64,000 nt of DNA from Acidobacteriota bacterium (GTDB lineage: Bacteria; Acidobacteriota; Terriglobia; Terriglobales; Acidobacteriaceae), in contig JANYDG010000027.1 of the NCBI GenBank assembly GCA_025359885.1, positions 1 through 64,000 on the forward strand. Reading direction: 5' to 3'. A program made the translations under genes and the position numbers. Under the pieces are notes generated by a model. It did no database searches and had not been told where the DNA came from. It saw only the letters and a list, made by a program, of their open reading frames with translations. Shown piece after piece: positions 9,083 through 23,479 of this stretch (position 1 is the first letter of the stretch; every line of letters starts with the position of its first letter).

Positions 9083-9090
9083 AGTACCCT

Positions 9091-9126
9091 CAGGGAAGGT
9101 CCAGAACAACCAACCATGGTTCCCTG
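9091..9126. terminator. Inverted repeat between convergent genes
   Basis: CAGGGAA (9091-9097) and TTCCCTG (9120-9126) are exact reverse complements around a loop that itself contains the palindrome AACCATGGTT. It sits between two convergent genes, so a bidirectional terminator is plausible, but there is no T-run. Confidence 0.35.
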
Positions 9127-9134
9127 CGAGGCCA

Positions 9135-9566
9135 CTACCGGTCGTGCCGTCTTTCCCGGTAAGCCTTCCACGCTTCCGTCGACCACAGTGCCCAGACCAC
9201 CAGCAGCGGCTGAAAAAGCAGTCGAATCGTTCTCGCAAGATCGGTGTTCAAACCAAAGGCATTGCGGTGGTTCGTGAGCTGAGCAATATTCCCAGGGAAA
9301 ATCAAAATGAAGAAGGCGGCTACCATCCACCCCACTCGCACCCGCTGTCGATGCAAAAACAGCAGCGCCGCGCCGAGGGATATCTCCACAAATCCAGACA
9401 AAACTACCACCAGGTCCGGGCTCAGCGGAACCCAGGTCGGTACCTGGGCCGAAAAATCCGTGCGCGACCACGTTAGGTGCGATATCCCCGCAAAAACCAG
9501 TGCTGCCCCCAGCAAAAGGCGCACGATCAGGCGAACCAACCCGCTCCGGCGAGATTCATTTGTCAT
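9135..9566 (-). CDS. DoxX-family integral membrane protein
   Basis: 143-residue protein with four predicted membrane helices: LVRLIVRLLLGAALVFAGISHL, VVVLSGFVEISLGAALLFL, VGWMVAAFFILIFPGNIAQL and LLFQPLLVVWALW. This arrangement and the GISHL and FVEISLGAAL signatures match DoxX/DoxD-like proteins of the inner membrane, whose exact biochemical roles are mostly unknown. The start ATG at 9566 has GGAGATGAAAC just upstream. It is probably monocistronic; the neighbours do not reveal its job. Confidence 0.8.
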   Translation of the reverse strand: MTNESRRSGLVRLIVRLLLGAALVFAGISHLTWSRTDFSAQVPTWVPLSPDLVVVLSGFVEISLGAALLFLHRQRVRVGWMVAAFFILIFPGNIAQLTNHRNAFGLNTDLARTIRLLFQPLLVVWALWSTEAWKAYRERRHDR

Positions 9567-9661
9567 GTTTCATCTCCTTCCATACCGCGGATATCGCCCA
9601 GCGAGTTCTCTGCCCTTCGGTACGATATCCGCCCGCCTCTCTCAGAATCGGCTCCCCGGTT

Positions 9662-10042
9662 CTACTTGGCCGCCATCTTCGACGGAGTCGCCGTAAATTC
9701 ACCCGTCACATTGAACGGAGCCACATCCACACTTCCCACGATTTTGTCGGAATCACCAAGAGTCGCCGTATACGTGAGGGTGATCGGGGTGCCGTTGTAA
9801 TCCGCATCATACGTCCAGGTAGCCTTGTTGCCATCGACAGTGCCGGTCACCGGCAGTTCCTTATCCTCGTGTTTGCAACTGCCGCTGATTTTATTGTCAG
9901 TCTGAACGAATTTGCATTCCCGGTCGCTTTCATTCCCGGCAACGCTGTTGTGAATCGTCCAATCGCCGGTAAGGCTAGGTACTCCAGCCGCGAATGCAGA
10001 TGAAGCAAAGAGAAGACAGGAAATCGTAAGGAGCTTTTTCAT
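9662..10042 (-). CDS. Small secreted protein of unknown function
   Basis: 126 residues with a clear signal peptide (MKKLLTISCLLFASSAFA, cut before AGV) and a ribosome binding site AAGGTGA. The mature part is rich in beta-forming residues, with a pattern of short strands (GDWTIHN, DNKISGSCKH, VTGTVDGNKATWTYDA, ITLTYTATLGD, VGSVDVAPFNVTGEFTATP) that suggests a small periplasmic or extracellular beta-barrel or sandwich. Two cysteines (in RECKF and GSCKH) could form a disulfide. I do not recognise a named family. Confidence 0.7.
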   Translation of the reverse strand: MKKLLTISCLLFASSAFAAGVPSLTGDWTIHNSVAGNESDRECKFVQTDNKISGSCKHEDKELPVTGTVDGNKATWTYDADYNGTPITLTYTATLGDSDKIVGSVDVAPFNVTGEFTATPSKMAAK

Positions 10043-10144
10043 GCGGAATCACCTTTCGGGTTGATGGATTGAGGTTGTCGCCGGAGCGCTTTCAAGAGAA
10101 CTGAAGGTTAAGAAACTTCCGTTGCACGGTTAAGGCGAAAATGC

Positions 10145-11725
10145 CTAGTGCATTCCCTGTCCTGCGGTCATGTCCGCGGTTGAAGGTCGTTTCATCAAAA
10201 AGGGAAGGGGAACCAGGAATGCAACAATCACTCCCAGCACAAAAAACGCACTGATAAAGGCCAGGACGCTTGCCTGCGCATCAACCATTTGCTGCAATTG
10301 TGCCAGCGAGTGTTGGCCCGCGTTTGCCGAACTGATTCCGGTGCTACTTGCGGATTGTCGCAGCCCCGCAAGGAATCGGTCAAAGAACACATTGCCACGA
10401 TGAAGATGCGCAGCCAGGTCAACTCGACTGATCTGCCGATGACGAGTCAGGTACGAAACCAGGAAAGACACACCAATCGCCCCGCCAAGATTCCGCACAA
10501 AGTTGCTGATGCCTGAAACCTGGTTATTGTCCTGCTGCCGCATACCCACATAAGCAAGCGTGCTGATCGGAATGAAGATTAGCGGAATGCCGACCACCTG
10601 GAATACCCGCATCCACACCACCGTCGTAAAGTCAACATACAGTGAGATGCGCATCATCCAGAACATGCTCACCGATGTCAGCAGAAAGCCCAGAGCGATC
10701 ACCTTCCTCGGGTCAAACTTCATCGCAAGAAGTCCCGCTACCGGCATAAGAAGCGCAAGCGCAATCCCCGCCGGCGACAACGCCATCCCCGCCTGCTGCG
10801 CCGAATACCCAAGCTGCAACTGAAGAAACTGCGGAATCAGAATCATCGAACCGTTCAACACCACTCCAAGAACGAAATTCGAAAGGGTCGAGGTAGCGAA
10901 GTTGCGGTTCTTCAGCAGCCGAAGCTGGATGATCGGGTGCTCAAACGTCCATTCTCGCCACACCATCGCAATCAGCGCAGTCGCTGAAAGAGCCGCAAAC
11001 GCGCAGATCACTCCCGAATCAAACCACTCAAGCTGTTCGCCCTTATCCAGCACATATTGCAAAAACCCAACTCCCAGAACAATGCTGACAATGCCAAAGT
11101 AGTCGGTTTTTTCGCCCTGCTTCTCCTTCGCCTCAATCACATGCGGGGGGTCATGCACCACCCGTTGGGTCAGGATCAGAGAAATAATCCCGATAGGCAC
11201 GTTGATGAAAAAGATCCAGTGCCAACTAAAGTTCTCCGTGATCCATCCCCCCAGTGTCGGACCAATAGCCGGGGCCACCACAATCGCCATTCCATAGATG
11301 GCAAAGCCCATGTTTCGCTGCGCCGGCGTGAAAGTATCAGCGAGTATCGCCTGCTCGCTCGGCCCCAGCCCACCGCCCCCCAGCCCCTGCATCACGCGAA
11401 ACATGATCAGCATCGGCAAACTCGTTGCCATACCGCAAAGCATCGAACTCAGCGTAAACAGAACTACGCAGGCCATATAAAACCGCTTGCGTCCAATCCG
11501 CGTTGAAAGCCACCCGCTCATCGGAAGAATGATCGCGTTTGCCACAAGGTAGCTGGTCTGCACCCATGTGCTCTCATCCCCTGTCGCCCCCAGACTCCCT
11601 GCAATATGCGGCAGGGCGACATTGGCAATCGAGGTATCCAGCACCTCCATAAACGTCGCCAGAGTCACCGTCATCGCGATCACCCACGGGTTAAAGCGCG
11701 CCGGAGCCGCTATCACCTGACCCAT
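10145..11725 (-). CDS. DHA2-family drug:proton antiporter (EmrB-like)
   Basis: 526-residue inner membrane transporter of the major facilitator superfamily, DHA2 (14-helix) class. It has the DHA2 start PWVIAMTVTLATFMEVLDTSIANVALPHIAGSL, motif A GWLSTRIGRKRFYM, and motif C in the IVVAPAIGPTLGGW region followed by WIFFINVPIG. The last helix is followed by a short cytoplasmic tail. It overlaps the end of the upstream HlyD-type gene by 13 bases, forming an emrAB-like operon. With that adaptor and an outer membrane channel encoded elsewhere it would pump toxic compounds out of the cell. The substrate is not predictable. Confidence 0.9.
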   Translation of the reverse strand: MGQVIAAPARFNPWVIAMTVTLATFMEVLDTSIANVALPHIAGSLGATGDESTWVQTSYLVANAIILPMSGWLSTRIGRKRFYMACVVLFTLSSMLCGMATSLPMLIMFRVMQGLGGGGLGPSEQAILADTFTPAQRNMGFAIYGMAIVVAPAIGPTLGGWITENFSWHWIFFINVPIGIISLILTQRVVHDPPHVIEAKEKQGEKTDYFGIVSIVLGVGFLQYVLDKGEQLEWFDSGVICAFAALSATALIAMVWREWTFEHPIIQLRLLKNRNFATSTLSNFVLGVVLNGSMILIPQFLQLQLGYSAQQAGMALSPAGIALALLMPVAGLLAMKFDPRKVIALGFLLTSVSMFWMMRISLYVDFTTVVWMRVFQVVGIPLIFIPISTLAYVGMRQQDNNQVSGISNFVRNLGGAIGVSFLVSYLTRHRQISRVDLAAHLHRGNVFFDRFLAGLRQSASSTGISSANAGQHSLAQLQQMVDAQASVLAFISAFFVLGVIVAFLVPLPFLMKRPSTADMTAGQGMH

Positions 11726-12924
11726 ACCGTTGCCTCAATCGACATTCCCGGCCGCAGCCGCGCCACGCCCTCCTGATTCGCATTCAGTCGTATGCGCACC
11801 GGCATTCGCTGCACCACTTTGATGTAGTTGCCGGTCGCGTTCTCAGGCGGAAGAATACTGCTCCGGGAGCCTGTAATCGCGGGAATGCTCTCGACCGTGC
11901 CTTCAAAGTCCTGTTTCAATGCATCCACATGAATCTTCGCGCGACGCCCAGGGTACATCCTCGCCAGTTGCGTCTCCTTGAAGTTCGCCGTCACCCACGT
12001 GTCCCCGGTTGCAACGATCATCATCAGCGGTTGCGCCTCGCTCACCCGATTGCCAAGCTCAGCGCTCCGCTGCGTCACAATTCCACGCACCGGTGAAACA
12101 ATGTGACAAAAGCTCAGGTTCAGTTCTGCGCGGCTCAATTGCGCCGCCGCAGCCTCGACATTTGCCTGCGCCGTCGCCAGATTTGCTTCCCGAATCGAGA
12201 TCTGGCCTGGCGCGGTTCGCGTTGTTTGCTCACGCCGGGCCGTCTGCGCTTGAATCTCGGCCTTCCGCTGCTCCACAAGCTTCTCCGACGAAGCCACATT
12301 CGCTCGCGCAGCATCCACATTCGCGTCGGCTGCGTGAGCAGACGCGACCGCCCGGTCATAGTCCTGCCGCGAAATCGTGCCAGCCTGAAAAAGCTGTTCA
12401 TTGCGCAGGAGCCCTGCATCATCGCGCGACCGAATCGCCTCGGCTTCCGCCACCTTTGCCAGCGCACTCGTCAGATCCTGGGAAGCCGCTGCATAGCCTG
12501 ACTTGGCCTGCGCCACTTGGACATCCCCAGTAATCGCTGCTGCCGCATTGTCTGCCACCGCCATGCCAACCGAAGGCCGTTGCGCGTTCAACTGTGCCAC
12601 TGCCTGGTCATATTCAGCCTTCGCCTGGGCATACGCGACCTTTTGCTCGCTGGGGTCAAGATCCACCAGCAACTGACCAGCCTCCACCGTTTGGTTATCC
12701 GTTACATACACCGTGGCAGTCGTACCCGAAATCCGCGAACTCACTACGTTCAGGTGACCATCCACCTGGGCGTCGTCGGTCGTTTCATAGCCCTGCGAAT
12801 AAACCGCCCATCCCGTCACCGCTCCAACAACCAGCAAAACGGCAAATCCCGCGATCAAAAATCGCGAGGTCTTCTTCTCGCCGCGCACCACCGAGAGCTC
12901 TGCCTGATCCAAAACTTGTGTCAT
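11713..12924 (-). CDS. HlyD/EmrA-type membrane fusion protein
   Basis: 403 residues if started at the ATG at 12924 (MTQVLDQAELSVVRG). A longer reading to 13140 would run through the TetR gene on the other strand and the operator, so it is rejected. An N-terminal membrane helix (FLIAGFAVLLVVGAVTGWAVY) is followed by the EmrA signature YETTDDAQVDGHLNVVSSRISG. A long alpha-helical coiled-coil rich in Ala/Gln/Glu follows, then the second lipoyl half (LSFCHIVSPVRGIVTQRSAELGNRV) and the beta-barrel segment. It links the EmrB-like pump to an outer membrane channel. Expression is probably controlled by the divergent TetR protein through the palindrome just upstream. Confidence 0.9.
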   Translation of the reverse strand: MTQVLDQAELSVVRGEKKTSRFLIAGFAVLLVVGAVTGWAVYSQGYETTDDAQVDGHLNVVSSRISGTTATVYVTDNQTVEAGQLLVDLDPSEQKVAYAQAKAEYDQAVAQLNAQRPSVGMAVADNAAAAITGDVQVAQAKSGYAAASQDLTSALAKVAEAEAIRSRDDAGLLRNEQLFQAGTISRQDYDRAVASAHAADANVDAARANVASSEKLVEQRKAEIQAQTARREQTTRTAPGQISIREANLATAQANVEAAAAQLSRAELNLSFCHIVSPVRGIVTQRSAELGNRVSEAQPLMMIVATGDTWVTANFKETQLARMYPGRRAKIHVDALKQDFEGTVESIPAITGSRSSILPPENATGNYIKVVQRMPVRIRLNANQEGVARLRPGMSIEATVWVR

Positions 12925-12935
12925 ACTTAAAACAT

Positions 12936-12949
12936 ACCGACCAGTCAGT
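12936..12949. promoter_or_regulatory. Candidate TetR operator for the efflux operon
   Basis: ACCGACCAGTCAGT lies 12 bases before the emrA-like start and 52 bases before the tetR start. Compared with its own reverse complement it is an imperfect palindrome (10 of 14 positions). It closely resembles ACYGACNRGTCRGT-type operators used by several TetR repressors. Binding here would block both divergent promoters. This is inferred from position and symmetry. Confidence 0.65.
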
Positions 12950-13000
12950 TTGTTGTCAACACCGAAACCGTCGTCCATGTAAAAATGAGGGAAGTCGTCT

Positions 13001-13615
13001 ATGGAATCGCCAGGTAAACAACAAATTCGAACCCAGGAAACCCAGGCACGTCTTCTCGACGCCGCTGAAACGGTCTTCGTTCGGGACGGATACGAAAACG
13101 CCCAGCTGGACGAAATTGCCGCCACCGCAGGCAGAAGCAAAGGTGCCGTTTACAACCACTTCAAGAGCAAAGAGGATCTCTTCCTCGTGCTCTACGAGCA
13201 CCGCACCAGGGCCTATGTCGAGCGGTTGTTCCTCAGTCTGCAAAAATGCAAAAGCAGGCAGGAGAGCTTCGCAGCATTTCGCGCCTTCTATGTCGGCCTG
13301 GTAGGCGACAGGATCTGGCCCATCCTCACCCTTGAATTCAAGCTCTTTGCACTCCGCCGTCCCGAATCGAAGGAGCGCTTCCGCAAGGCCTTCGAAATGG
13401 CCAAGGCGACCAACTACGATTCCACACACGAGCAGCTGTTCGGCCAAATCACGCCCGACAAAAAGTCAGGCAATGAAATGTCTGCATTGGCTCTCGGCCC
13501 CGTTCTCTCCGGACTCATTCTCGAGAGCCATTTCGAACCCGAAAAGCTCTCGGAAGAAGCGCTTCAACGCATCCTCGGCCGCATCTTCGATGCCCTTTTT
13601 CCGGCCCCGCGTTGA
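13001..13615 (+). CDS. TetR/AcrR-family transcriptional regulator
   Basis: 204 residues. The N-terminal HTH domain is typical: TRLLDAAETVFVRDGYENAQLDEIAATAGRSKGAVYNHFKSKEDLFLVLYEHR (given here only as a region, about residues 11-60). The recognition helix is RSKGAVYNHF. The C-terminal ligand-binding domain resembles the C-terminal half of AcrR-like repressors. It is divergent from the EmrAB-type operon with a palindromic operator in between, so it most likely represses that pump and its own gene until a toxic ligand binds. No other target is evident. Confidence 0.88.
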   Translation: MESPGKQQIRTQETQARLLDAAETVFVRDGYENAQLDEIAATAGRSKGAVYNHFKSKEDLFLVLYEHRTRAYVERLFLSLQKCKSRQESFAAFRAFYVGLVGDRIWPILTLEFKLFALRRPESKERFRKAFEMAKATNYDSTHEQLFGQITPDKKSGNEMSALALGPVLSGLILESHFEPEKLSEEALQRILGRIFDALFPAPR

Positions 13616-13664: not shown

Positions 13665-14993
13665 CTACTTGGGTGCCGCCCCGTCCTTGGGGGCTGCTGA
13701 GGCTGCCGGACTTGCCGCTTTATCAGCGGTTGCTTCCGTTGGCTTGCCGGTCGGCGCAGCTGCCGCAGTAATGCGCCGTCGGTCCGCTGCCTTTTGCAAT
13801 CCCTCTTCTCGCTTTGCCTTTTCGGCGGCCGCTTCGGTGTCAGTCACGTAGCGGAAAACCTGCAATCGTCCCGGCTCCTGCTCCGTCGTAAACACCCGGT
13901 TCTGCTTGTCAATCGCCACTCCCATCAGCGATTTGAACTGGCCAGGCAGCTCTCCATGCCCGTTTCCGATATACGTCAGCAACTGTCCTTCACGATTGAA
14001 GACCTGCAGCCGGTCCTCCATCTGGTCCGTCACCCAGATGTGGCCGTCGCCATCCACGGCAATGCCTTTCGGCCGCGCGAAATAGCCAGGCCCATCGCCA
14101 TGCTTGCCAAACTCGCTGATGTAGGCTCCGTCCGCATCAAAAATCTCCACGCGGTTATTCAGCGTATCCGTCACATACACATTGCCCTCTCCGTCCAGCG
14201 CAACGCCCTGCGGCGCGCCAAAGTCTCCAGGCGTCGTCAGAAAGTGGTTCTTTCCGCCGGTTCCAATCCGTCGCAGCAGCTTGAGCGAGTCCGCGTCGTA
14301 GACGATTACCTGGTCCTGCTGCGTGTCCACCACATAGACAAATCGGTTCGTCGTGTCGATGGCCAGCCCCACCGGGTCCACCAATCCCTCTGAAATCTGA
14401 TTCTCTACCTCGTGCTTGCGGTTGAAAATCAGCACACGATGCATCTTGCCATCCGAAACAAACAGCCGGTCGTCGTCATCGATGGCCAATCCATTGACCC
14501 AGCCAAAGTTGGCTTCCACACTATTGCGGATCATGTGGCAATCGCGGGTTTTCGTGTTGAAGATGAAAACCGCACCGACTCTCTGGTCTGCCACATACAC
14601 CAGCCCCTCAGAATCAATCGCGATACCGTACGGTCCGATCATCTGAAACGGGAAAGTCTTCGTATTGACCTTCTCCGGCTCAGACTGACCACCCGCGAGC
14701 CGGTCCATCCAGCTCGCCTTGGGCTTGGCATTTGCTGTCGGCGTGTAGTCGATCTTGGCCCCGGCAAAATAGTCCAGCCATTGAATGCGCGCAATGTTCG
14801 GCGGGCTTGGCCAAGCCAGCTTGGTCGGGTCAAAGCCAAATTTTCGCGGTCCCACCTCGGCTGTAGTTGCAGGTTCCGCCTTCTTTTTCGTGCCTGCACC
14901 TGCACTCAGAGGAGCCATCAGGCCCAGCGTAAGCAAAAGCAGCAGAGCGAGACTGTTGCGGCGGCAGATCGGGTTCAGGGGTAAGCGAAACAT
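13665..14993 (-). CDS. Secreted six-bladed NHL beta-propeller protein (last gene of cytochrome operon)
   Basis: 442 residues from ATG14993, which has GGAG six bases upstream; a TTG at 15005 is a weaker alternative. Signal peptide: NSLALLLLLTLGLMAPLSAGAG. Six NHL repeats are visible, each with a G-[IVL]-A-[IV]-D start and a V-[TAS]-D core: PYGIAIDSEGLVYVAD, VNGLAIDDDDRLFVSD, PVGLAIDTTNRFVYVVD, PQGVALDGEGNVYVTD, PKGIAVDGDGHIWVTD and LMGVAIDKQNRVFTTE. The C-terminus is an Ala/Lys/Pro-rich tail. It follows the 16-heme cytochrome gene without a gap. Beta-propellers of this kind accompany multiheme cytochromes in extracellular electron transfer clusters. An OscD-like role is an analogy, not shown by sequence identity. 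Confidence 0.85.
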   Translation of the reverse strand: MFRLPLNPICRRNSLALLLLLTLGLMAPLSAGAGTKKKAEPATTAEVGPRKFGFDPTKLAWPSPPNIARIQWLDYFAGAKIDYTPTANAKPKASWMDRLAGGQSEPEKVNTKTFPFQMIGPYGIAIDSEGLVYVADQRVGAVFIFNTKTRDCHMIRNSVEANFGWVNGLAIDDDDRLFVSDGKMHRVLIFNRKHEVENQISEGLVDPVGLAIDTTNRFVYVVDTQQDQVIVYDADSLKLLRRIGTGGKNHFLTTPGDFGAPQGVALDGEGNVYVTDTLNNRVEIFDADGAYISEFGKHGDGPGYFARPKGIAVDGDGHIWVTDQMEDRLQVFNREGQLLTYIGNGHGELPGQFKSLMGVAIDKQNRVFTTEQEPGRLQVFRYVTDTEAAAEKAKREEGLQKAADRRRITAAAAPTGKPTEATADKAASPAASAAPKDGAAPK

Positions 14994-15005
14994 GTTCATC
15001 TCCAA

Positions 15006-16574
15006 TTATTTTCCCGGGAAATTCGTATCTTTCATGTTGATCCGGTTCTTGTGGCAGTTGTCGCAAAAGGCTGTGTTGTTGATCTGGTCGTTCATCAGCA
15101 GGCCCGGCCGCGCTGACGCGTGTGACTGGTGGCACGAAAGGCAACTCAGCGGCGTCTTCACCTTGCTCTGGTTCGTCGGATCCATCACGTCAGAGACGGG
15201 GTGATACTCCACCGGGTGCCCAAGACCATAGCGCAGTGGCAAAATTGGAACTCGATTCGTCTTGTAGTAGTCTTCCGGCAGCTTTACCTGGCCGTTGAAG
15301 ATGGTCAGCAGGTGAGTGGCTTCATCCTTTTCCGCAGCCGAATCAGGCCCATGACACTCCAGGCACAACGCGTTTCCCTTGGCGCGCAGCAAGTGCTCAT
15401 TGTCGCCCCCATGAGGGGTATGGCATGTGCCGCACCCCTGCGTGAAGGCGGGCTGATGATGCACTGATTTCTTCCGCAAATCATCAATGTCTGTGTGGCA
15501 TCCAAGGCAGATCGTTACTCCATCCGTCTTCGGCAACCCGGGTTCGCTGCTGGCGTGTGGGTTATGACAATCCGTGCAATCACCCATCGCGCCGGCATGC
15601 GGCACCTTTGCCGAATCGATCAACTTCGCCTTGTCGTCATGGCACGTTACGCACAGCGTCTTTACATCCTTCTGCGCGAGAACCACTTTCCCATCCTTTG
15701 TCGCCAGGTGGCAGGTCTCGCAACTGTTTCCGGCAAAGGGCACATGCAAAAACTTCGCCATCAGCTTCGGGGCGTCCGACTGGTGCGGATTGTGGCATTG
15801 CACGCAATTGGCAGTCCCAAATGGCTGATTCTGATGCGCCTTTTGCAAGCCAGCGTCCTTTACGTCGTGGCAATCGACGCAGAGCGCCGGAGCCACCTTG
15901 GTCAGATGAAACCGGTTCTCTTGTGTCGGTTCAGCGCCCGTCTTGTGGGTCGTATGGCAGGTGTCACAGCCCGCCTCCAGCGCCGCATGGCGGCTGCCTT
16001 TCTCCGGAACATGCAGGCCAGTCTTATGACAACTCAGGCAAAGATTCTCCTTTTCGTCGCCAGATTCAGGCTTCACCAGCAACGCCTTGTTGTCACTGGA
16101 GTGCGGATCGTGGCACATCAGGCAGTCGCGCACCGCTGGAGGATGCACCGTCCCCTTGATTTCAGCAGCTTTCTTATCCGTATGGCAGGTCAGGCAAAGC
16201 CCATTCGCCGAAGCCGTAATCAGCTTCACACGGGTCACATCCTTGTTCACCCTCACCTCGTGGCAACTCAAACATCCCGTCGCCAGCGCCGAATGAACAA
16301 ACTTGTGCTTCGTCTTGTCGTCGTGGCATTCAAGGCACTGCTTGGCGTCCGTGTTCTTATCCAGAGGAACCGGATGAACCGCCGCCATTGCCGGCAACGT
16401 AACTAGCACCATCAGGGCCAGGCAGATCTTGCCGCCCCAGCCCAAAATACCTGCGTTACCCACCCCTCTACCAATCCAGCCGCGATCTGGCCGAACGTTC
16501 ACACAAACTCCGAAAGAAAAATAATCCACGACACTCCTTAAAACCACATGAACCGGATGCTCAGCAGCATTCAC
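15006..16574 (-). CDS. Exported 16-heme c-type cytochrome
   Basis: 522 residues from a GTG start overlapping the previous stop (GTGA) with GGAGG five bases upstream. A GTG at 16463 would give a cleaner signal peptide (GKICLALMVLVTLPAMAA). I count 16 CxxCH heme sites: CLECH, CLSCH, CLTCH, CLMCH, CLSCH, CDTCH, CVDCH, CVQCH, CETCH, CVTCH, CTDCH, CLGCH, CGTCH, CLECH, CLSCH and CDNCH. Most are of the CxxCH-x-PH or doubled CxxCH type of periplasmic or outer membrane electron carriers. It is co-transcribed with a 12-heme cytochrome, propellers and a beta-barrel protein. It probably moves electrons across or beyond the outer membrane; the direction and partner are unknown. Confidence 0.9.
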   Translation of the reverse strand: MNAAEHPVHVVLRSVVDYFSFGVCVNVRPDRGWIGRGVGNAGILGWGGKICLALMVLVTLPAMAAVHPVPLDKNTDAKQCLECHDDKTKHKFVHSALATGCLSCHEVRVNKDVTRVKLITASANGLCLTCHTDKKAAEIKGTVHPPAVRDCLMCHDPHSSDNKALLVKPESGDEKENLCLSCHKTGLHVPEKGSRHAALEAGCDTCHTTHKTGAEPTQENRFHLTKVAPALCVDCHDVKDAGLQKAHQNQPFGTANCVQCHNPHQSDAPKLMAKFLHVPFAGNSCETCHLATKDGKVVLAQKDVKTLCVTCHDDKAKLIDSAKVPHAGAMGDCTDCHNPHASSEPGLPKTDGVTICLGCHTDIDDLRKKSVHHQPAFTQGCGTCHTPHGGDNEHLLRAKGNALCLECHGPDSAAEKDEATHLLTIFNGQVKLPEDYYKTNRVPILPLRYGLGHPVEYHPVSDVMDPTNQSKVKTPLSCLSCHQSHASARPGLLMNDQINNTAFCDNCHKNRINMKDTNFPGK

Positions 16575-18463
16575 TTTCGTCCTCCGATCCGTCCGCGCAG
16601 CCCAGCCGCAGACACCGTTCCATCGGGATTATGAGCAACCAGGTGGCAAACCAGGGTGCAACTATTGGTAGCGCGGTTGTAGCTCACCGGAAGGTTACCG
16701 TTCGGGGCAACAACATTCATGTCAAAGTTCACCAGCCGCTCTCCGCTCACACTGGCATTGGTGGCTCCCATACCGTGCGCCGTATGGCAGGTAGAGCAGC
16801 TCACGCCTGCGTCCATGTGGGCGCTGTGCTTGTTCCAGCTCGTGTTCCGATGGATCTGGTTTGCCAGGTCGTGGCACTTGCCACAGAGCGCATAGGGTCC
16901 ATTCACGCTGAGGTCCGGGTTGGGAAACAAATTCGAGATCGCCTGTCCCGGCACCGCTGCCTGGCTGAATTCATACCGCCGCTCCAGAATGTGCGTCCAT
17001 CGTGAACCATGAGGACCGTTCGCGCCCGGGCCGCCAGACTCGCGATTATCGTCGCTGTTGTGGCAGTCCGTACAGAGCACCTGCGTACCCATCGCACGCC
17101 CCGGCGTGATTCCATCCAGGTTCAACATATTTCCCAGCAGGCTCGGCTGCGCCAGAGAACTGCTTCGGGCATGCATCACCGGATGACTAGACGTCGCCCC
17201 GACAGCAAACTGCGGTATCTGATTCAATGCGTCGCCAGCCGAAACCGCACGCACCGGAAAGTAGCCATAAATCGGCAGCACCTGTTTGCTGGAACTGGTT
17301 CCGTGACAACGCAGGCAATTCTCGTACTGATTCACGGCCGGCGCAAGCACGCTCGTTCCGTCGCTCGCCTGGATGCCCGCAATATTCTTCTGCGAGATGC
17401 GAATCTGCGGCGCAGGCGGAAAGACCCCCACCGGCTCAGATCCATGCGCGCTATGGCAGTCAACGCAGGTAGCGTGTCGATTGTTGTTCAGCAGCACACC
17501 TTCCGTCGCATCATGCGGATTGGTCGCGGCCGGGAAGGGATGGCCCACCTTGGGCGCAGCATATTCGGCAAACACGTTCGCGCTGGGCGGCATCGGCGAA
17601 ACATTCGCCCCGCCATTGTGGCAAGCAATGCAATCCAGCTCATTCTGCCCACGCAGCAGCCTTGCCGGGCCCGTCGAGTTGTGCGGAGCATGACATGAGA
17701 TACACGCCGCACCCGCCACGGTCGGGTAGCTGCCCAGCAAAGCCTGGGGTGAAATCTTGCTCGTAGACAGCGCATGCGCACTCGCGGTCCAATCCGCCAG
17801 CGGATTTACCTGGCCACCTATCGTCCGCAGGGGATCATGACAGGCCAGGCAAAGCTGCCCATTCGAGCCGTCCTTCACCAAAAAGTTCCGTGAAATCGGA
17901 TCCTTCGACTGCACATGCGGATTGTGACACGACATGCACTCCACGTTTCCCTTGATCAGTGTCACCGCTCCCGTTGCGTCAGCAGTATGCCCATTCGCCA
18001 CCAGCGACGCCGCCAGGGTGATATTGTCCTTCAATGGCGGCGTCAGGCTAAAGGGGTGCGAAGACTGCAGGTTGCTCCCAAATACGTCGCTCGTTTGCAT
18101 CGAACCCTGCGTCACCACCTGCCCATAGGCCACGGTCGCGCCGACCGCTACCGTGCCGTCATGGCAGCTCAGGCACTGGTTGCTGCTGGTCCCAAGCACT
18201 GGCTGCGTACTCACATTTTTCGCTGTATTACTGTTGTAGGTCGTGTAAATCTGCGTCGTAAGCTTCTGATTCCACAAGCCAATATTCAATCCAGAGTGCG
18301 GAGCGTGGCAGTAGGCGCAGGCCTCAGGCCGTGCCCCGGTGATGTGCGACCCACTCCCCGGGCCCAGGCTATGAACCCCCAATGCGTCCCCGGTTATCTG
18401 CGCCGGCAAAGAGCTGCACATCAACAGGGTCAGCATCACGGTCAGCAAAATTCTCATCTTCAC
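16571..18463 (-). CDS. Exported multiheme cytochrome c, 11 CxxCH plus one CxxxCH
   Basis: 630 residues from a GTG start (GTGA overlap with the previous gene; ATG18457 is the alternative). Signal peptide: LLTVMLTLLMCSSLPAQ. Heme sites: CAYCH (C49), CLSCH (C97), CMSCH (C176), CLACH (C205), CISCH, CIACH, CVDCH, CLRCH, CTDCH, CGKCH and CSTCH, and finally CTLVCH, a wider CxxxCH site. The first four motifs and their surroundings (CHAPHSG, LW, CLSCHDG, HP, CHNPH) mirror the separate tetraheme cytochrome encoded at 22601-23479, which suggests a shared module. Its location in an operon with propellers, a beta-barrel and an isomerase implies a role in extracellular electron transfer. The redox partner is unknown. 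Confidence 0.9.
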   Translation of the reverse strand: MKMRILLTVMLTLLMCSSLPAQITGDALGVHSLGPGSGSHITGARPEACAYCHAPHSGLNIGLWNQKLTTQIYTTYNSNTAKNVSTQPVLGTSSNQCLSCHDGTVAVGATVAYGQVVTQGSMQTSDVFGSNLQSSHPFSLTPPLKDNITLAASLVANGHTADATGAVTLIKGNVECMSCHNPHVQSKDPISRNFLVKDGSNGQLCLACHDPLRTIGGQVNPLADWTASAHALSTSKISPQALLGSYPTVAGAACISCHAPHNSTGPARLLRGQNELDCIACHNGGANVSPMPPSANVFAEYAAPKVGHPFPAATNPHDATEGVLLNNNRHATCVDCHSAHGSEPVGVFPPAPQIRISQKNIAGIQASDGTSVLAPAVNQYENCLRCHGTSSSKQVLPIYGYFPVRAVSAGDALNQIPQFAVGATSSHPVMHARSSSLAQPSLLGNMLNLDGITPGRAMGTQVLCTDCHNSDDNRESGGPGANGPHGSRWTHILERRYEFSQAAVPGQAISNLFPNPDLSVNGPYALCGKCHDLANQIHRNTSWNKHSAHMDAGVSCSTCHTAHGMGATNASVSGERLVNFDMNVVAPNGNLPVSYNRATNSCTLVCHLVAHNPDGTVSAAGLRGRIGGRK

Positions 18464-19569
18464 CGTGTCGCCTCCCGCACTGTACCGCCCGCTGCCTTTT
18501 GACCCGCGTACTGAAATACCTGTACCCGTCGATTGAATGAATCCACCACAAACACCTTGTCATCATGGTCGATGAACATGCCGGAAGGCAGTTGGAACTC
18601 CCCGGCATGCGTTCCCTTCGTGCCAAAGGAGTAAAGTAACGCTCCCGCGCGGTTGAACACCTGCACCGCTCCCCACAAAGCGTCCACCACATACAGATCG
18701 CCTTCCGAATCGACGCTCACCGCCTTCGGCCGGAACATCGCCCCAGTCGAGTCGCCCGTCTTGCCGATCGCGTACTGAAAGGCGCCGCCGCGGTCAAACA
18801 CCTGCACGCGAAAGTTCATCGCATCCACCACCAGCAGGTTTGGCCCGCTCAATCGAATTTCGGTCGGCAGGTTGAATTCACCCTCGCCCTCCCCCGTCTT
18901 CCCAATCTTTTCAAGGACGGTCCCCTGCATGTCCAACACAAAAACCTGGTCGCGCAACGTGTCCGTTACATAGATCCGCTGTTCCGCCGAGTCGACAGCA
19001 ATGCCGGTAGGGCGCTTGAAATAACCCTCACCACCCTTCAGGCTGCCAATCGCCCGCACAAACTTGCCACTCGCCGCAAAAACAAAGATCTTGCCCGCCT
19101 CTGAATCCGTGACATAGATGTTGTCCTGGGCATCGACAGCAACACATTGTGGTGTCGTCATGGGGTCTTTGCCCTTTTCCCTGCGCTCGATGAACTTGTA
19201 CTTGCGCTGTGCAAAATCAAAGATATGCACTCCCGATGCCCCAGGGTCGGTCACAAGAATGCGTCCCCGCGAATCAGTCGCGATGCCATACGGCCGCACC
19301 AGAAAACGGTAATCCGGTGCCCCGGCAACCACATCCACCAGCTTGGTCCAAAATCCCCGATTCAGATTTACCTCCGCTTCAGATCTGAAACTGTGCTCCC
19401 AGGTAAGCTTGCGGCCTCCATCCAGCGACATCTCCCACTGTTCCGACGCAACGGCTGGCTTCAATTTGGGCGCAGCCAATATCCAACACGGCAACAGCGC
19501 CAGGTACGCCAAAACGAGACCTGCGCTCCTGCCGTGATGAAACCATCGAATTAGAAAAAGTTGAACCAA
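18460..19569 (-). CDS. Secreted six-bladed NHL beta-propeller protein
   Basis: 369 residues from a TTG start (GGGGA upstream), overlapping the end of the beta-barrel gene by 19 bases and the start of the 12-heme cytochrome by four. The N-terminal hydrophobic stretch AGLVLAYLALLPCWILA is a signal peptide or anchor. Six NHL blades are seen: PYGIATDSRGRILVTD, PQCVAVDAQDNIYVTD, PTGIAVDSAEQRIYVTD, PTEIRLSGPNLLVVD, PKAVSVDSEGDLYVVD and PSGMFIDHDDKVFVVD. Tight overlaps mean it is translated together with the barrel and cytochrome, so it is likely part of, or an assembly factor for, the same complex. It is a paralogue of the NHL gene at the operon's end. Confidence 0.85.
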   Translation of the reverse strand: MVQLFLIRWFHHGRSAGLVLAYLALLPCWILAAPKLKPAVASEQWEMSLDGGRKLTWEHSFRSEAEVNLNRGFWTKLVDVVAGAPDYRFLVRPYGIATDSRGRILVTDPGASGVHIFDFAQRKYKFIERREKGKDPMTTPQCVAVDAQDNIYVTDSEAGKIFVFAASGKFVRAIGSLKGGEGYFKRPTGIAVDSAEQRIYVTDTLRDQVFVLDMQGTVLEKIGKTGEGEGEFNLPTEIRLSGPNLLVVDAMNFRVQVFDRGGAFQYAIGKTGDSTGAMFRPKAVSVDSEGDLYVVDALWGAVQVFNRAGALLYSFGTKGTHAGEFQLPSGMFIDHDDKVFVVDSFNRRVQVFQYAGQKAAGGTVREATR

Positions 19570-21383
19570 CGTGATATCCCCATGTAATACGAAGAAATAA
19601 TCTCTGGCTTGGAACCGGTGCTGCCAAAACCCTGTTCCATCCGCGCATACCCACTGATCAGGTTCAGCTTGCGCAGCCGGTACTGCAGCAGCACGTTGTA
19701 TTGGCTGTTTTCATTGGCTGACGAAATACTGTTGCTGAACGTATTGCTCGTGGATCTGGCATAGGTGCCCGCCAGGATCAGCTTCTTGATCGGCGTGCTC
19801 GATACCCCGATCGAATAGCTCTTTCCACCAAACAGACTCACCAGGCCAGGGGGCAAAACCGGCGGCGGTACCGGCACGCCAACCAGCCCCGTTCCCGTCA
19901 AAAGCGCTTCGCCATCTGACTTTGAATAATTCCCGGAAGCCGTCAGCAGCGAACCATACCCCACGCTTGCGCTGTACGACTGGCTGCTGTTCGAGAGCCC
20001 GGCCTGGTCCGTCAAAGCCGTCCGAGAGCCGCCCGCTCCCGCGCTGATATTCAGCAGGCCCCAGTTGCGACGCAAGCTCCCCGAGTAAAAATAAAACGAA
20101 TTCGTATACGTCACCAGCAGCGTCTGAGCATTTTGCGCATAGCTGAATGCCTCATTCACATGCCATCCCAGCACCACGTTGGAGTAGTTCTCAGTCGCTG
20201 AAAAACCAACCGTGTCCTGGCCGTTCTGGTCCGCAGAGTTGGCCGTCACACTCACCGCCGTATTGATAATCCCGTTCAAAAGCTTGTGGGCATACGTCGC
20301 GCTGCCCCCCAGTGAGGTAACTCCGTAATCCCGCCCGGAAAATGACTGTGTCCGGCGCTCAACATACGCTGAAGTCTGCAAATTGATTTGCGGAGAATAC
20401 GACGCAACCCCCATCAGGTCCAGCGAATTGGAAGACTGATTCGAATCCAGTTTCTGACTCGCCCCGCCTGCCGAAATCACTGACTGGATAATTTCGCCCG
20501 CCAGGTTGTCCGAGTAGCTCCCCGTCGCCGTCAGTGACAGCCTGTTCATTGGGTGCACGCCCGCCGTCGCATTCACCGTGTCAATTGTTCCGCTCGAACT
20601 CGCTCCCAGATAGTTGGTCTTCCATGTTGAACGATTGACACCACCCGTTAACGAACCATGCAGCGGAAGCAGGTGCGAAAGATTCGCCCCATAGGCATTG
20701 TTGTCAGAGTGTATCTCCAGTGTCGAACCAGCCACCACGGGCGGAATCCGAGATTGGCCCGCACCGTTGGTAAAGTAACCTCCCACATTGAAACCCGACC
20801 ACGCATAGCCCGAATGCAGATTCAGCGAACGAAATGAATTCTTCCCGGAGCTGTTTGACCCGTATACCGAATACGCGCTCGTCCCTCGCTGGTAGCCCGC
20901 TGAAAGACTAGGCACATTCGGCAGATTCTCGCTCCAGTTCACGCCAATCGTGTCACTGTTTCCGTGGGTCACATAGTTCGAAAGTCCAGGAACTGCAAAG
21001 TTTCCCTCGCTGTTGTAAGCCTTTGAATAGGTGAAGGAACCTGGAAATCTGCTGCCTGCAAAGATATTCGCGCTCACGTTCACGCCGCTTGCATCAGAAA
21101 TCGACTGAAAATTGGAATTCGCTCGCGACTGGTTCAGATAAGGCGAAACGTTATAGGAGAGGAAATTAGGACTATGGAAGGATCCAGACAGCGCTGCCGC
21201 ACCTCCAACCGACCATCCATGCGAGGATCCGGTCAGGTTGCCATAATTCGCCGTATATCCAGTCGAGATTGTCCCGGTCGCGCGGTTGCTTGTTTCACCC
21301 AGCCGGATCTGCGCAGCAACGGGGATTGCAAGCACCAGAAGCACTGCACCTAAAAACCTCGTGATAGGAAAAGACCGCACCAC
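19551..21383 (-). CDS. Outer membrane beta-barrel protein of cytochrome operon
   Basis: 610 residues from a GTG start, with a signal peptide (FLGAVLLVLAIPVAAQ). The mature protein is rich in Ser, Asn, Gly, Tyr and Thr, with many alternating-hydrophobic strands (for example LSYNVSPYLNQ, FTYSKAYN, SLTATGSYSDN, VVLGWHVNEAFSY). It ends in MGISRWFNFF, a terminal Phe as recognised by the BAM machinery. It has no TonB plug. By size and context it could be the porin-like sheath or channel of a porin-cytochrome conduit, or the export channel for a cytochrome filament. The barrel assignment is inferred from composition and C-terminus; I do not recognise a named family. Confidence 0.75.
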   Translation of the reverse strand: MVRSFPITRFLGAVLLVLAIPVAAQIRLGETSNRATGTISTGYTANYGNLTGSSHGWSVGGAAALSGSFHSPNFLSYNVSPYLNQSRANSNFQSISDASGVNVSANIFAGSRFPGSFTYSKAYNSEGNFAVPGLSNYVTHGNSDTIGVNWSENLPNVPSLSAGYQRGTSAYSVYGSNSSGKNSFRSLNLHSGYAWSGFNVGGYFTNGAGQSRIPPVVAGSTLEIHSDNNAYGANLSHLLPLHGSLTGGVNRSTWKTNYLGASSSGTIDTVNATAGVHPMNRLSLTATGSYSDNLAGEIIQSVISAGGASQKLDSNQSSNSLDLMGVASYSPQINLQTSAYVERRTQSFSGRDYGVTSLGGSATYAHKLLNGIINTAVSVTANSADQNGQDTVGFSATENYSNVVLGWHVNEAFSYAQNAQTLLVTYTNSFYFYSGSLRRNWGLLNISAGAGGSRTALTDQAGLSNSSQSYSASVGYGSLLTASGNYSKSDGEALLTGTGLVGVPVPPPVLPPGLVSLFGGKSYSIGVSSTPIKKLILAGTYARSTSNTFSNSISSANENSQYNVLLQYRLRKLNLISGYARMEQGFGSTGSKPEIISSYYMGISRWFNFF

Positions 21384-21501: not shown

Positions 21502-22530
21502 CTAAAGCTCTTCGACCTTCGCGTTCTGTCGCAGCTTCTTGTCCAGCGCAGCCTGCACCTGGTTGCTTCTCGCCTGTTGCAGCTCCTTTTGCAACTGTGT
21601 CCGTACCTCTGCAAATCTTGTTTGACCTGCCGGGGTGTGCGCCTGCAGCCGCACGATTGTGTAGGCCTGCTCCACCTGCAGCAGATCGCTCACATCATTC
21701 GGGTGCATCGCAAGCAGCGCCTTCACCACCTGGGGAGCCAATTCATCCACCCCAACAGGCTTGTGTTGGCCCATCATCACCCGGTAGTCGTCGTCAGAGA
21801 GCTTCTCCGCCAGCAGCCCAAAATCGTCCGCCGTCTTTGTTCCCTTCGCCTGTCGCAGCGCGTTCTCGGCCCGGGTCCGAGCTTCCTTCAACTGCTCGGC
21901 TGTCGCCTTTGCCGGGGGTAGAATCGAAATTGTCTGGAAAGTAAACGCCTCAGGATGATGAAAGCGAGCCGCGTTTTTGTCGTAGTAGGCTCGTATCTCC
22001 GCCGCCGTAACCACGCTCTTATCCTGGACCTGCAACTTGAGATACGCTTCAATCAACAGCGATCGCCGTATCTTTTCCCGCAAAAGTGGAGTGGATCCGT
22101 GAAAATCGTTCTGCAGAAAAGCGTTGTACTCGGCCGGCGTAGCAAACTGCTTCCGAAATTCTGCCTCGGCAGCCTGTAGCTTTGACGGCGCTACCGTCAT
22201 TTTCCCCCGCAGCGCCTCCTGGTACACCAGCTCTTCAAAAATGATCATCTGCAGCGCGCCATCGCGAATCTGCTTTTCCAACTCCTTCGGGATACCGTTA
22301 TGCTGCTTCGCATAAGGAAAGATCGCGTACTCCTCGCGAACCAGGTCCACGTCCGTCAGTATCGCGCTGTTCACCCGCACAACCGGCTTGCCAGAGAATA
22401 AGAGTGTGCTTTTCGCCGAACCTTGGGAAGGAGATTTTTGAAACACGGTAGGTGTATGGGAAGACACCTGTGCAACACACAATGGAACTGAAAATGAAAG
22501 AAATACGGTAAGTAAGGTTGTGCTCTTCAT
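21502..22530 (-). CDS. Periplasmic PpiC/SurA-type peptidyl-prolyl isomerase
   Basis: 342 residues from ATG22530. The in-frame extension upstream covers the terminator and is rejected. The signal peptide MKSTTLLTVFLSFSVPLCVAQ is followed by a SurA-like N-terminal helical region (NSAILTDVDLVREEYAIFPYAK, KLQAAEAEFRKQFATPAEYNAFLQ). A parvulin domain follows (about residues 190-300, including FHHPEAFTFQTISILPP, DFGLLAEKLSDDD, PVGVDELAPQVVKALLAMHPNDVS and YTIVRLQ). It is the first gene of the operon that encodes the barrel, propellers and two large cytochromes. A chaperone role for these exported proteins or for the neighbouring tetraheme cytochrome is likely. Its place matches the isomerase (OscH) of nanowire assembly clusters. 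Confidence 0.85.
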   Translation of the reverse strand: MKSTTLLTVFLSFSVPLCVAQVSSHTPTVFQKSPSQGSAKSTLLFSGKPVVRVNSAILTDVDLVREEYAIFPYAKQHNGIPKELEKQIRDGALQMIIFEELVYQEALRGKMTVAPSKLQAAEAEFRKQFATPAEYNAFLQNDFHGSTPLLREKIRRSLLIEAYLKLQVQDKSVVTAAEIRAYYDKNAARFHHPEAFTFQTISILPPAKATAEQLKEARTRAENALRQAKGTKTADDFGLLAEKLSDDDYRVMMGQHKPVGVDELAPQVVKALLAMHPNDVSDLLQVEQAYTIVRLQAHTPAGQTRFAEVRTQLQKELQQARSNQVQAALDKKLRQNAKVEEL

Positions 22531-22549
22531 TGGTTTGACCCCCGTTCTG

Positions 22550-22585
22550 AAAAAAGAGGGAGGGGGAAAACTGCTACCCCCTCCC
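22550..22585 (-). terminator. Strong rho-independent terminator after tetraheme cytochrome gene
   Basis: On the minus strand GGGAGGGGG pairs perfectly with CCCCCTCCC around a 10-base loop, followed by TCTTTTTT. It starts 15 bases after the tetraheme cytochrome stop. It separates that gene from the isomerase operon, so the cytochrome can be made at a much higher level than its companions. Confidence 0.9.
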
Positions 22586-22600
22586 ATCATCGTTCAACAT

Positions 22601-23479
22601 TTAGAAAGTAGTCACTGCCGTGCTGCCGGACATCTCATTGCTCTCGCCACCGTGGCACTGGCGGCAGAATTGCGCCGTCTGGTTGCTGCCAGCTGTGCCG
22701 CTCGCCGGGTTGTAAGGAGCGCGAATGAAGAACATCGTTGCATACGTTCCCGTCGGCAACCCCGACTTCGGCCCCGTGGTGACGCTCACGACGTTCATCA
22801 AATGCTGGTTGTGGCAGGTCGTGCACATCACGACGGGCGTGTTGTTGTACGCAGCTGGCCGCACAAAGAATCCGTAATTGGTCACAAACTGGCTCGACTT
22901 GGCCCCGGTCATCAGGACTGCACCCGTCGCGCTGATCGAGCAATCCCAGTCATACGGTCCGCCGCAGCCAATTACTGCACTCAGGCCTACCGGATGGTCG
23001 TTCAGATAGTTGCCAACTGTGCTGCCGTCGTTGCCAAGCAGCGTTGGGATGCTGTTCAAGGTTCCGTACGTCGCTGGCAACGTCTCGTACACCTTGTTCT
23101 TCATCATCGCGCCGGTGGCATAGTTGCCGTCATGGCAGCTAAGGCACATCAGCACGCCTGCGACATCCGGCGTGCCAGAGGTCGTGCTCGTCGGCAATAC
23201 TTCAACAACATTGCCATGCTCACTCTGACCCGTCGTGATCGTCTTGCCGTAAAGGCTACTGACGTCCTCGCCCCAAAGTGCATTGTTTCCTGAAGTTGCA
23301 TCCGCGGTTTTGGCGTTGCCGTTTCCGTAGGCGCCGCTGTGGGGTGCATGGCACGCTGTACAGCCGCGCCCGTAGTTGAGATGGGCGCCGAGGACATCAG
23401 TCGACGGCGTTGCAATCTGCGCCGCTGCAAAGCCGGTCGCCCCGAAAATCATGATCGCTAGTGCTAAACATCGTTTCAT
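22601..23479 (-). CDS. Exported tetraheme c-type cytochrome, candidate nanowire subunit
   Basis: 292 residues with a signal peptide (cut after GFAAAQ, residue 21). Four CxxCH sites: C40-TA-CH, C112-LS-CH, C219-TT-CH and C272-RQ-CH. Two extra cysteines (C172, C180) could form a disulfide. The surroundings CHAPHSG, CLSCHDG, DHPVG and CHNQH are shared with the N-terminal part of the 12-heme protein in the next operon. The size and heme number are like Geobacter OmcE and archaeal tetraheme filament cytochromes, and the adjacent genes are isomerase, barrel and propellers. It has its own strong terminator and a 373-base upstream region. Filament formation is inference; a soluble or surface-bound electron carrier is the alternative. 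Confidence 0.87.
   Translation of the reverse strand: MKRCLALAIMIFGATGFAAAQIATPSTDVLGAHLNYGRGCTACHAPHSGAYGNGNAKTADATSGNNALWGEDVSSLYGKTITTGQSEHGNVVEVLPTSTTSGTPDVAGVLMCLSCHDGNYATGAMMKNKVYETLPATYGTLNSIPTLLGNDGSTVGNYLNDHPVGLSAVIGCGGPYDWDCSISATGAVLMTGAKSSQFVTNYGFFVRPAAYNNTPVVMCTTCHNQHLMNVVSVTTGPKSGLPTGTYATMFFIRAPYNPASGTAGSNQTAQFCRQCHGGESNEMSGSTAVTTF

Follow-up and report, generated by a model that had tools for sequence, protein, structure and literature searches.

A 64,000-nucleotide stretch of DNA from a soil bacterium, a member of the Acidobacteriota in the class Terriglobia (order Terriglobales, family Acidobacteriaceae; GenBank assembly GCA_025359885.1, contig JANYDG010000027.1, positions 1 to 64,000), called the window below, encodes a 12-heme cytochrome, P0001, whose first four hemes lie in a domain (the N-module) homologous to a separate tetraheme cytochrome of the same gene cluster, P0002, and to OmcE, a nanowire-forming cytochrome of Geobacter sulfurreducens (Table 1). 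This relationship had been suggested in an initial annotation, made from the sequence alone, on the basis of the order of motifs around the hemes, and it was borne out by shuffling controls, by profile comparisons and by the bit scores of cytochromes encoded in the same genome. The favoured explanation, to which about even chances are given, is that the 12-heme protein serves as a fixed adaptor, by which an OmcE-type nanowire assembled from separate tetraheme subunits is joined to a conduit in the outer membrane.

Homology of the N-module and the separate tetraheme

P0001, which is not a free-standing tetraheme, carries 11 CXXCH heme sites and one CX3CH site (C602-H607). Its hemes 1-4 are bound at C49, C97, C176 and C205, and P0002 has four CXXCH sites, at C40, C112, C219 and C272; these positions and the coordinates of both genes had been given correctly in the initial annotation. 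The motifs on which it relied are all present and follow the same order in the two proteins: CHAPHSG, LW, CLSCHDG followed by A-x-GA, HP, CHNxH and a last CXXCH. Four distal histidines are common to P0001 hemes 1-4 and P0002, and a fifth landmark, previously overlooked, is an invariant histidine upstream of heme 1 (H31 in P0001, H33 in P0002). H33, H47, H162 and H226 of P0002 are invariant in all 22 rows of alignment A1, and the four CXXCH sites and four distal histidines stand in the register of OmcE.

A shared order of motifs might be merely the common doubled-CXXCH pattern of multiheme cytochromes, produced by chance or convergence. In keeping with this explanation, the single-pair BLASTP alignment of P0001 with P0002 (E = 4e-7, 96 aa) is confined to hemes 1-2, and hemes 5-8 of 12-heme proteins also show a weak profile-profile match to tetrahemes (6.2e-15). 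Because cytochromes necessarily have CXXCH motifs and histidines in common, a control was used in which everything was permuted except all CXXCH motifs and all histidines. P0002 aligned with the N-module at a local score of 111, which none of 1000 shuffles reached (mean 57.7, standard deviation 9.3, maximum 101), while the same procedure gave z = -0.2 for P0001 hemes 5-12 and z = 2.5 for the 16-heme cytochrome P0003 encoded in the same cluster. The similarity is therefore specific to hemes 1-4.

Profile-profile comparison of 86 tetrahemes with 98 N-modules gave E = 2.7e-54 across 187 columns, and a profile built from tetrahemes alone detected hemes 1-4 in 98 of 98 12-heme proteins. Counts for this protein family, here named DHC12, rest on the matches listed: those of 99 include L122 (12 CXXCH in its long open frame), which is left out of those of 98, while L099 (10+1 hemes) and L154 (broken frame), both among the 80 named loci described below, and incomplete genes from short contigs (L071, L072, L074) are outside both; L108 is counted twice, and three genomes present as both a named and an unnamed locus (L056/L087, L058/L095, L065/L094) were kept except in the mirror-tree analysis. 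Within the window's own genome, the tetraheme profile A4, which contains no N-module, scored P0002 at 169.1 bits, the N-module at 127.7 and any other cytochrome at 25.9 or less; the N-module profile scored the N-module itself at 175.2 bits and P0002 at 22.3 bits with partial coverage. Equal similarity to unrelated multiheme cytochromes, named in the initial annotation as grounds for abandoning the idea, was seen neither in these scores nor in the shuffle z values. Furthermore, in divergent members of the family the tetraheme in the same gene place is only about 220-250 aa long and, except in L064, matches P0001 (1e-12 to 1e-17) better than P0002; judged by their sequences, these short tetrahemes are intermediates. 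Together with the end-to-end match to OmcE described below, the shuffling, the genome-wide scores and the short tetrahemes refute chance or convergence at the level of sequence and leave it a very small probability, and the homology of the N-module and the separate tetraheme is, from the same comparisons, certain for practical purposes.

Internal triplication, by which P0001 would consist of three tetraheme modules, was also considered and rejected. Hemes 5-8 have a similar motif order and match the N-module weakly by profile (5.4e-16), but hemes 5-12 are without pairwise similarity to P0002, and they are therefore at most an older, eroded repeat.

An OmcE-type domain

Profile A5, made from 71 N-modules (70 of the 98 and the window's own), was searched against all PDB sequences and found the OmcE filament of G. 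sulfurreducens (7tfs) at E = 2.8e-45 over OmcE residues 21-232. The second match was 9yuq (1.6e-37; 16 chains, "putative multiheme cytochrome c"), and the first chain outside the OmcE type followed at 5.2e-8. Tetraheme profiles also ranked 7tfs and 9yuq first, matching OmcE at 2.9e-20 when built from Acidobacteriota only and at 6e-44 when built from many phyla, as against a far weaker 3.7e-10 for OmcS (6ef8) with the many-phyla profile. BLASTP matched OmcE to all of 99 N-modules (the window's own at 3.5e-14) and to 68 of 87 tetrahemes, but to none of 98 heme 5-8 segments; phmmer matched whole P0001 to OmcE (E = 6.7e-11) with filters off, the bias filter otherwise dropping the match. These results argue strongly that the module is an OmcE-type nanowire-subunit domain, and the profile matches place the separate tetraheme in the OmcE family, in agreement with its earlier description as a filament-type cytochrome. 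One correction concerns the small protein: the OmcE matches and profile bits indicate that P0001 holds the more OmcE-like module and that P0002 is a derived, long-looped member.

Evolutionary history

In a quick maximum-likelihood tree of 86 N-modules, 73 tetrahemes, OmcE and 9yuq (200 columns, without outgroup), one branch, with a Shimodaira-Hasegawa-like approximate likelihood ratio test (SH-aLRT) value of 98, parts all 86 N-modules from OmcE, 9yuq and all 73 tetrahemes. That the 12-heme gene gained its module by a recent local duplication of the tetraheme gene was rejected on this ground. With all N-modules set apart by a single branch, the fusion appears to have happened once, before the family spread over phyla, and the tree is most simply explained by one ancient fusion. 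The initial annotation had supposed that heme units were added to a filament-type module. An old, single fusion fits this supposition, but the tree also allows a module grafted onto a longer cytochrome or a subunit excised from one; with 66 of 156 inner branches weak and no outgroup, it is no proof of direction.

Conservation of the family and its gene neighbourhood

Matches to P0001 were present in 24 of 151 genomes of the class and matches to P0002 in 13, all of which are among the 24. A scan of named genomes gave 80 loci among the matches listed and reported at least 483 relatives; the family is therefore larger than the set counted here. The named loci include Acidobacteriota, Verrucomicrobiota, Planctomycetota, Nitrospirota, Gammaproteobacteria, Desulfobacterota (including a Geobacteraceae genome), Bacteroidota and Anaeromyxobacter; cultured carriers of the genes include Anaeromyxobacter oryzae Red232 and Desulforhopalus sp. 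IMCC35007. The regions fetched share a gene set consisting of a cytochrome (mostly of 7 or 16 hemes), a beta-propeller (NHL1), the tetraheme, an isomerase, a barrel, another propeller (NHL2) and the 12-heme cytochrome; in the most divergent regions the isomerase and barrel escape recognition at the sequence level.

The 11 CXXCH sites and one CX3CH site are kept almost throughout DHC12, while the large partner cytochrome has 5 to 19 hemes. An NHL2-like gene lies directly upstream of 92 of 99 DHC12 genes, and an open reading frame (ORF) of at least 380 aa precedes NHL2 in 76 of the 99 loci. Of these 76 ORFs, 58 end in F, a C-terminal residue frequent in outer-membrane barrels. A tetraheme is found in the locus of 75 of 99 DHC12 genes, and of 45 of the 48 that lie in named loci of at least 15 kb. 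The suggestion that the large cytochrome competes for filament assembly found no evidence; the two genes are kept close across phyla, which argues instead for cooperation. A lipobox-like motif, sought with a simple pattern and not a predictor, occurs near the N-terminus of 4 of 99 DHC12 proteins, and by this pattern the family does not present the lipoprotein outer cytochrome expected of a conduit.

A possible joint between conduit and nanowire

In OmcS filaments the histidine given to the neighbouring subunit is that of the CHxxH motif following heme 1. Eleven of the 12 axial histidines of OmcS come from its own chain and one, at heme 505, from the neighbour (PMC6584659), and in OmcE, whose four hemes can be superposed on the first four of OmcS, one heme is likewise ligated from the adjacent subunit (PMC9473688). 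In the 12-heme proteins, CHxxH is present at heme 1 in 96 of 98, with H56 being H in 77 of 79 rows of alignment A3, and at heme 5 in 98 of 98, with H261 kept in 79 of 79 rows. If this arrangement, in which a heme near the interface takes a histidine from the next subunit, also holds for OmcE-type modules, H261 may fill, within the chain, the role of the next subunit's histidine in a filament, and H56, without a heme of its own chain to serve, may be given to a heme of a docked tetraheme subunit. Hemes 1-4, lying on the outer side, would supply the filament with an end subunit that is part of P0001 itself, and hemes 5-12 would make an MtrA-like wire in or on the barrel, exchanging electrons with the 16-heme cytochrome; P0001 would in effect be a permanent end of the filament. 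Folding and assembly would be aided by the isomerase and propellers, as has been reported for the osc cluster of OmcS.

The AlphaFold2 model of P0001, from a 79-sequence alignment, has a mean predicted local distance difference test (pLDDT) score of 80.6 and a predicted template modelling (pTM) score of 0.80, with residues 18-34, 47-66 and 103-118 under 50. The fold matches quoted are those of a second look with VIA at 17 chains per model. Residues 91-579 matched MtrA (6r2q_A) with Z 10.3, 242 aligned residues and a root-mean-square deviation (rmsd) of 4.0. The wire-like fold of the part that follows the N-module, the unchanging length of this part and the short overlaps between neighbouring reading frames suggest that P0001 belongs to the barrel complex, and a constant 12 hemes beside a barrel-like ORF, where the other large cytochrome is variable, suits a fixed-length plug. 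The P0002 model is poor (pLDDT 59.9, with low stretches including 24-41 and 45-71), and its best match at this low confidence was 7tfs (residues 28-277, Z 7.9, rmsd 4.2, 176 of 202 aligned). Although not strong by themselves, the models being weak there, the VIA matches support the registers proposed in the initial annotation and bear indirectly on the structural superposition that it had asked for. Confidence is low around heme 1 in both models; a region that depends on a partner would be expected to behave in this way, but there may be other reasons.

Several observations weigh against a docking adaptor. Each of 14 distal histidines is conserved in 77 or more of the 79 rows, two more than 12 hemes call for, which makes H56 one of several candidates for a surplus histidine; two of the 98 proteins lack H56. 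The MtrA match of P0001 runs in the same direction, N to C, which, given the orientation of MtrA in the Mtr complex, would leave the N-module facing the periplasm; by sequence, P0003 with its 16 hemes is the better MtrA relative. Residues 18-118 of the P0001 model are largely of low confidence, the VIA match of residues 31-210 to OmcE 7tfs is modest (Z 6.4, 169 of 202 aligned, rmsd 7.3), and Foldseek gave no useful match for either model. P0002 alone had no significant match to OmcE in a single-sequence search, a profile being needed, and some tetrahemes were recruited partly through a match to the DHC12 profile, which may favour the profile results, although the shuffle test is independent of it. 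Finally, the mirror-tree correlation of the tetraheme was 0.822 both with the N-module and with the rest of the protein; it does not discriminate between them and gives no sign of a special coupling of N-module and tetraheme.

Equal correlations of this kind would be in line with shared ancestry without docking. The tetraheme module would then be an old electron-transfer domain, which in the 12-heme protein is simply the outer part of a conduit or a terminal reductase passing electrons to minerals or soluble acceptors, and the separate tetraheme would be a co-expressed soluble or filament cytochrome; known conduits have outer cytochromes without filament subunits (PMC10553843). This explanation seems less likely than the adaptor, since the module has kept the register of OmcE throughout, the CHxPH histidine after heme 1 included, and a tetraheme is nearly always close by.

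The direction of the MtrA-like match, by which the N-module would be periplasmic, is what would be expected of an assembly or export factor, in which the module faces the periplasm or the barrel mouth and serves as an usher-like template for tetraheme folding or export, electron transfer being secondary. The cluster does contain an isomerase and propellers, whose osc counterparts are reported to act in OmcS folding, secretion and morphology (PMC12977616, PMC13194489). A 12-heme protein would be a costly chaperone, though, and the 16-heme protein, being closer to MtrA, is the better candidate for the periplasmic side; this function is considered improbable.

If the adaptor proposal is extended to the whole 12-heme family, the latter could be a common foot of OmcE-type nanowires across bacterial phyla, in which a filament subunit is fused for good to a heme wire crossing the outer membrane. 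Such a foot would start the filament and connect it electrically by lending the heme-1 histidine (H56) to a heme of the docked subunit, an extension that is offered tentatively.

Organization of the locus and related loci

The genes of the cluster are listed in Table 1. Those for the barrel, NHL2, the 12-heme and the 16-heme cytochrome have short overlaps between their reading frames. The 610 aa barrel-like ORF had no match in Pfam and NCBIfam searches. P0003 is a lengthened MtrA/DmsE relative, and the same gene place elsewhere holds the partner cytochromes of variable heme number noted above. For both NHL propellers (13665-15005 and 18460-19569), the top NCBIfam match is the model of the scytonemin-associated ScyF, far under its cut-off. 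Adjoining the cluster, at 10145-13615 of the window, are ORFs that by sequence resemble a major facilitator superfamily (MFS) efflux pump, a membrane-fusion protein and a TetR-type regulator.

Table 1. Features of the cytochrome cluster. All coordinates are positions in the 64,000-nucleotide window, and the whole cluster lies on the (-) strand.
Feature	Position	Strand	Remarks
second NHL beta-propeller	13665..15005	(-)	PF01436 1.2e-28
P0003, 16-heme cytochrome, MtrA/DmsE-like	15006..16574	(-)	TIGR03508 4.9e-50; MtrA 6r2q_A 4.9e-20
P0001, 12-heme cytochrome	16571..18463	(-)	630 aa; N-terminal signal-like hydrophobic stretch
P0001 residues 226-630, hemes 5-12	16574..17788	(-)	wire-like part
P0001 H261, CHxPH His after heme 5	17681..17683	(-)	proposed in-chain counterpart
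P0001 N-module, residues 31-215, hemes 1-4	17819..18373	(-)	OmcE-type domain
P0001 H56, CHxPH His after heme 1	18296..18298	(-)	proposed donor to docked subunit
NHL2 beta-propeller, directly upstream of 12-heme gene	18460..19569	(-)	frames overlapping; PF01436 4.4e-23
ORF of 610 aa, probable outer-membrane beta-barrel	19551..21383	(-)	C-terminal F
PPIC/SurA-type peptidyl-prolyl isomerase	21502..22590	(-)	PF13145 1.3e-16
P0002, separate tetraheme cytochrome	22601..23479	(-)	292 aa; OmcE family, probable filament subunit

Some related loci depart from this arrangement. At L051:8187-9083 (-), L077:9979-10845 (-) and L073:9126-10034 (+) there is a second tetraheme gene of OmcE type, in convergent orientation to the one for the 12-heme protein, and the genome of L051 (G103) has a third tetraheme copy on another contig. 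In a Woeseiaceae genome, two 12-heme genes occupy one locus (L108:6159-7850 and 8869-10626, both (+)), the first of which has lost the heme-1 CHxxH histidine and has a long branch in the tree. An 18-heme protein encoded at L104:11896-14337 (+) has weak, module-length matches to OmcE-type profiles (about 1e-10) and perhaps represents another fusion class.

Comparison with known systems

OmcE (7tfs) and 9yuq share with the P0002 family and the N-module the tetraheme register, the four distal histidines and a profile match over the whole length. In contrast, OmcE is a free tetraheme of 232 aa, whereas P0001 adds eight hemes behind the module and P0002 has long inserted loops. MtrA of the Shewanella Mtr complex (6r2q; TIGR03508) resembles the P0001 model in its wire-like fold and is related to P0003 by sequence, but it is without an OmcE-type module. 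Against the TIGR03508 cut-off of 192.2 bits, P0003 scored 170.4, just under it, and P0001 53.5.

The osc cluster that accompanies omcS in Geobacter (GSU2493-2501) likewise combines a filament cytochrome with an isomerase, a propeller, channel-like proteins and large cytochromes, among them the 26-heme GSU2495; its subunit, OmcS, has six hemes, as against four in P0002, and the excerpts of the two reports do not mention a fused filament subunit (PMC12977616, PMC13194489). The Oet conduit of syntrophic sulfate reducers (OetABI with OmcX- and OmcS-like genes) also clusters a barrel with large and putative filament cytochromes, but OetB is described as a lipoprotein, unlike nearly all DHC12 proteins by the lipobox count above; OetA, OetB and OmcX were compared by description only (PMC10553843). 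Skennerton 2017 (PMC5539420) mentions an operon whose cytochromes, related to OmcX, have 11 or 12 heme motifs. An OmcE-type fusion was not found in the literature searched, which does not include key subscription papers, and its absence from print is not claimed.

Cytochrome nanowires and porin-cytochrome conduits are already known; the new element is a conserved protein in which a longer wire bears the domain of a filament subunit. The passage from the filament to the interior of the cell has been described as not well understood (Murali 2023, PMC10553843), and an alternative proposal has nanowires charged directly by periplasmic cytochromes (PMC10954620). For this step, the 12-heme protein is a concrete, mutable candidate for the joint between nanowire and cell, and the presence of its gene may help to recognise genomes with OmcE-type wires, both among soil Acidobacteriota and in other phyla that have received little study.

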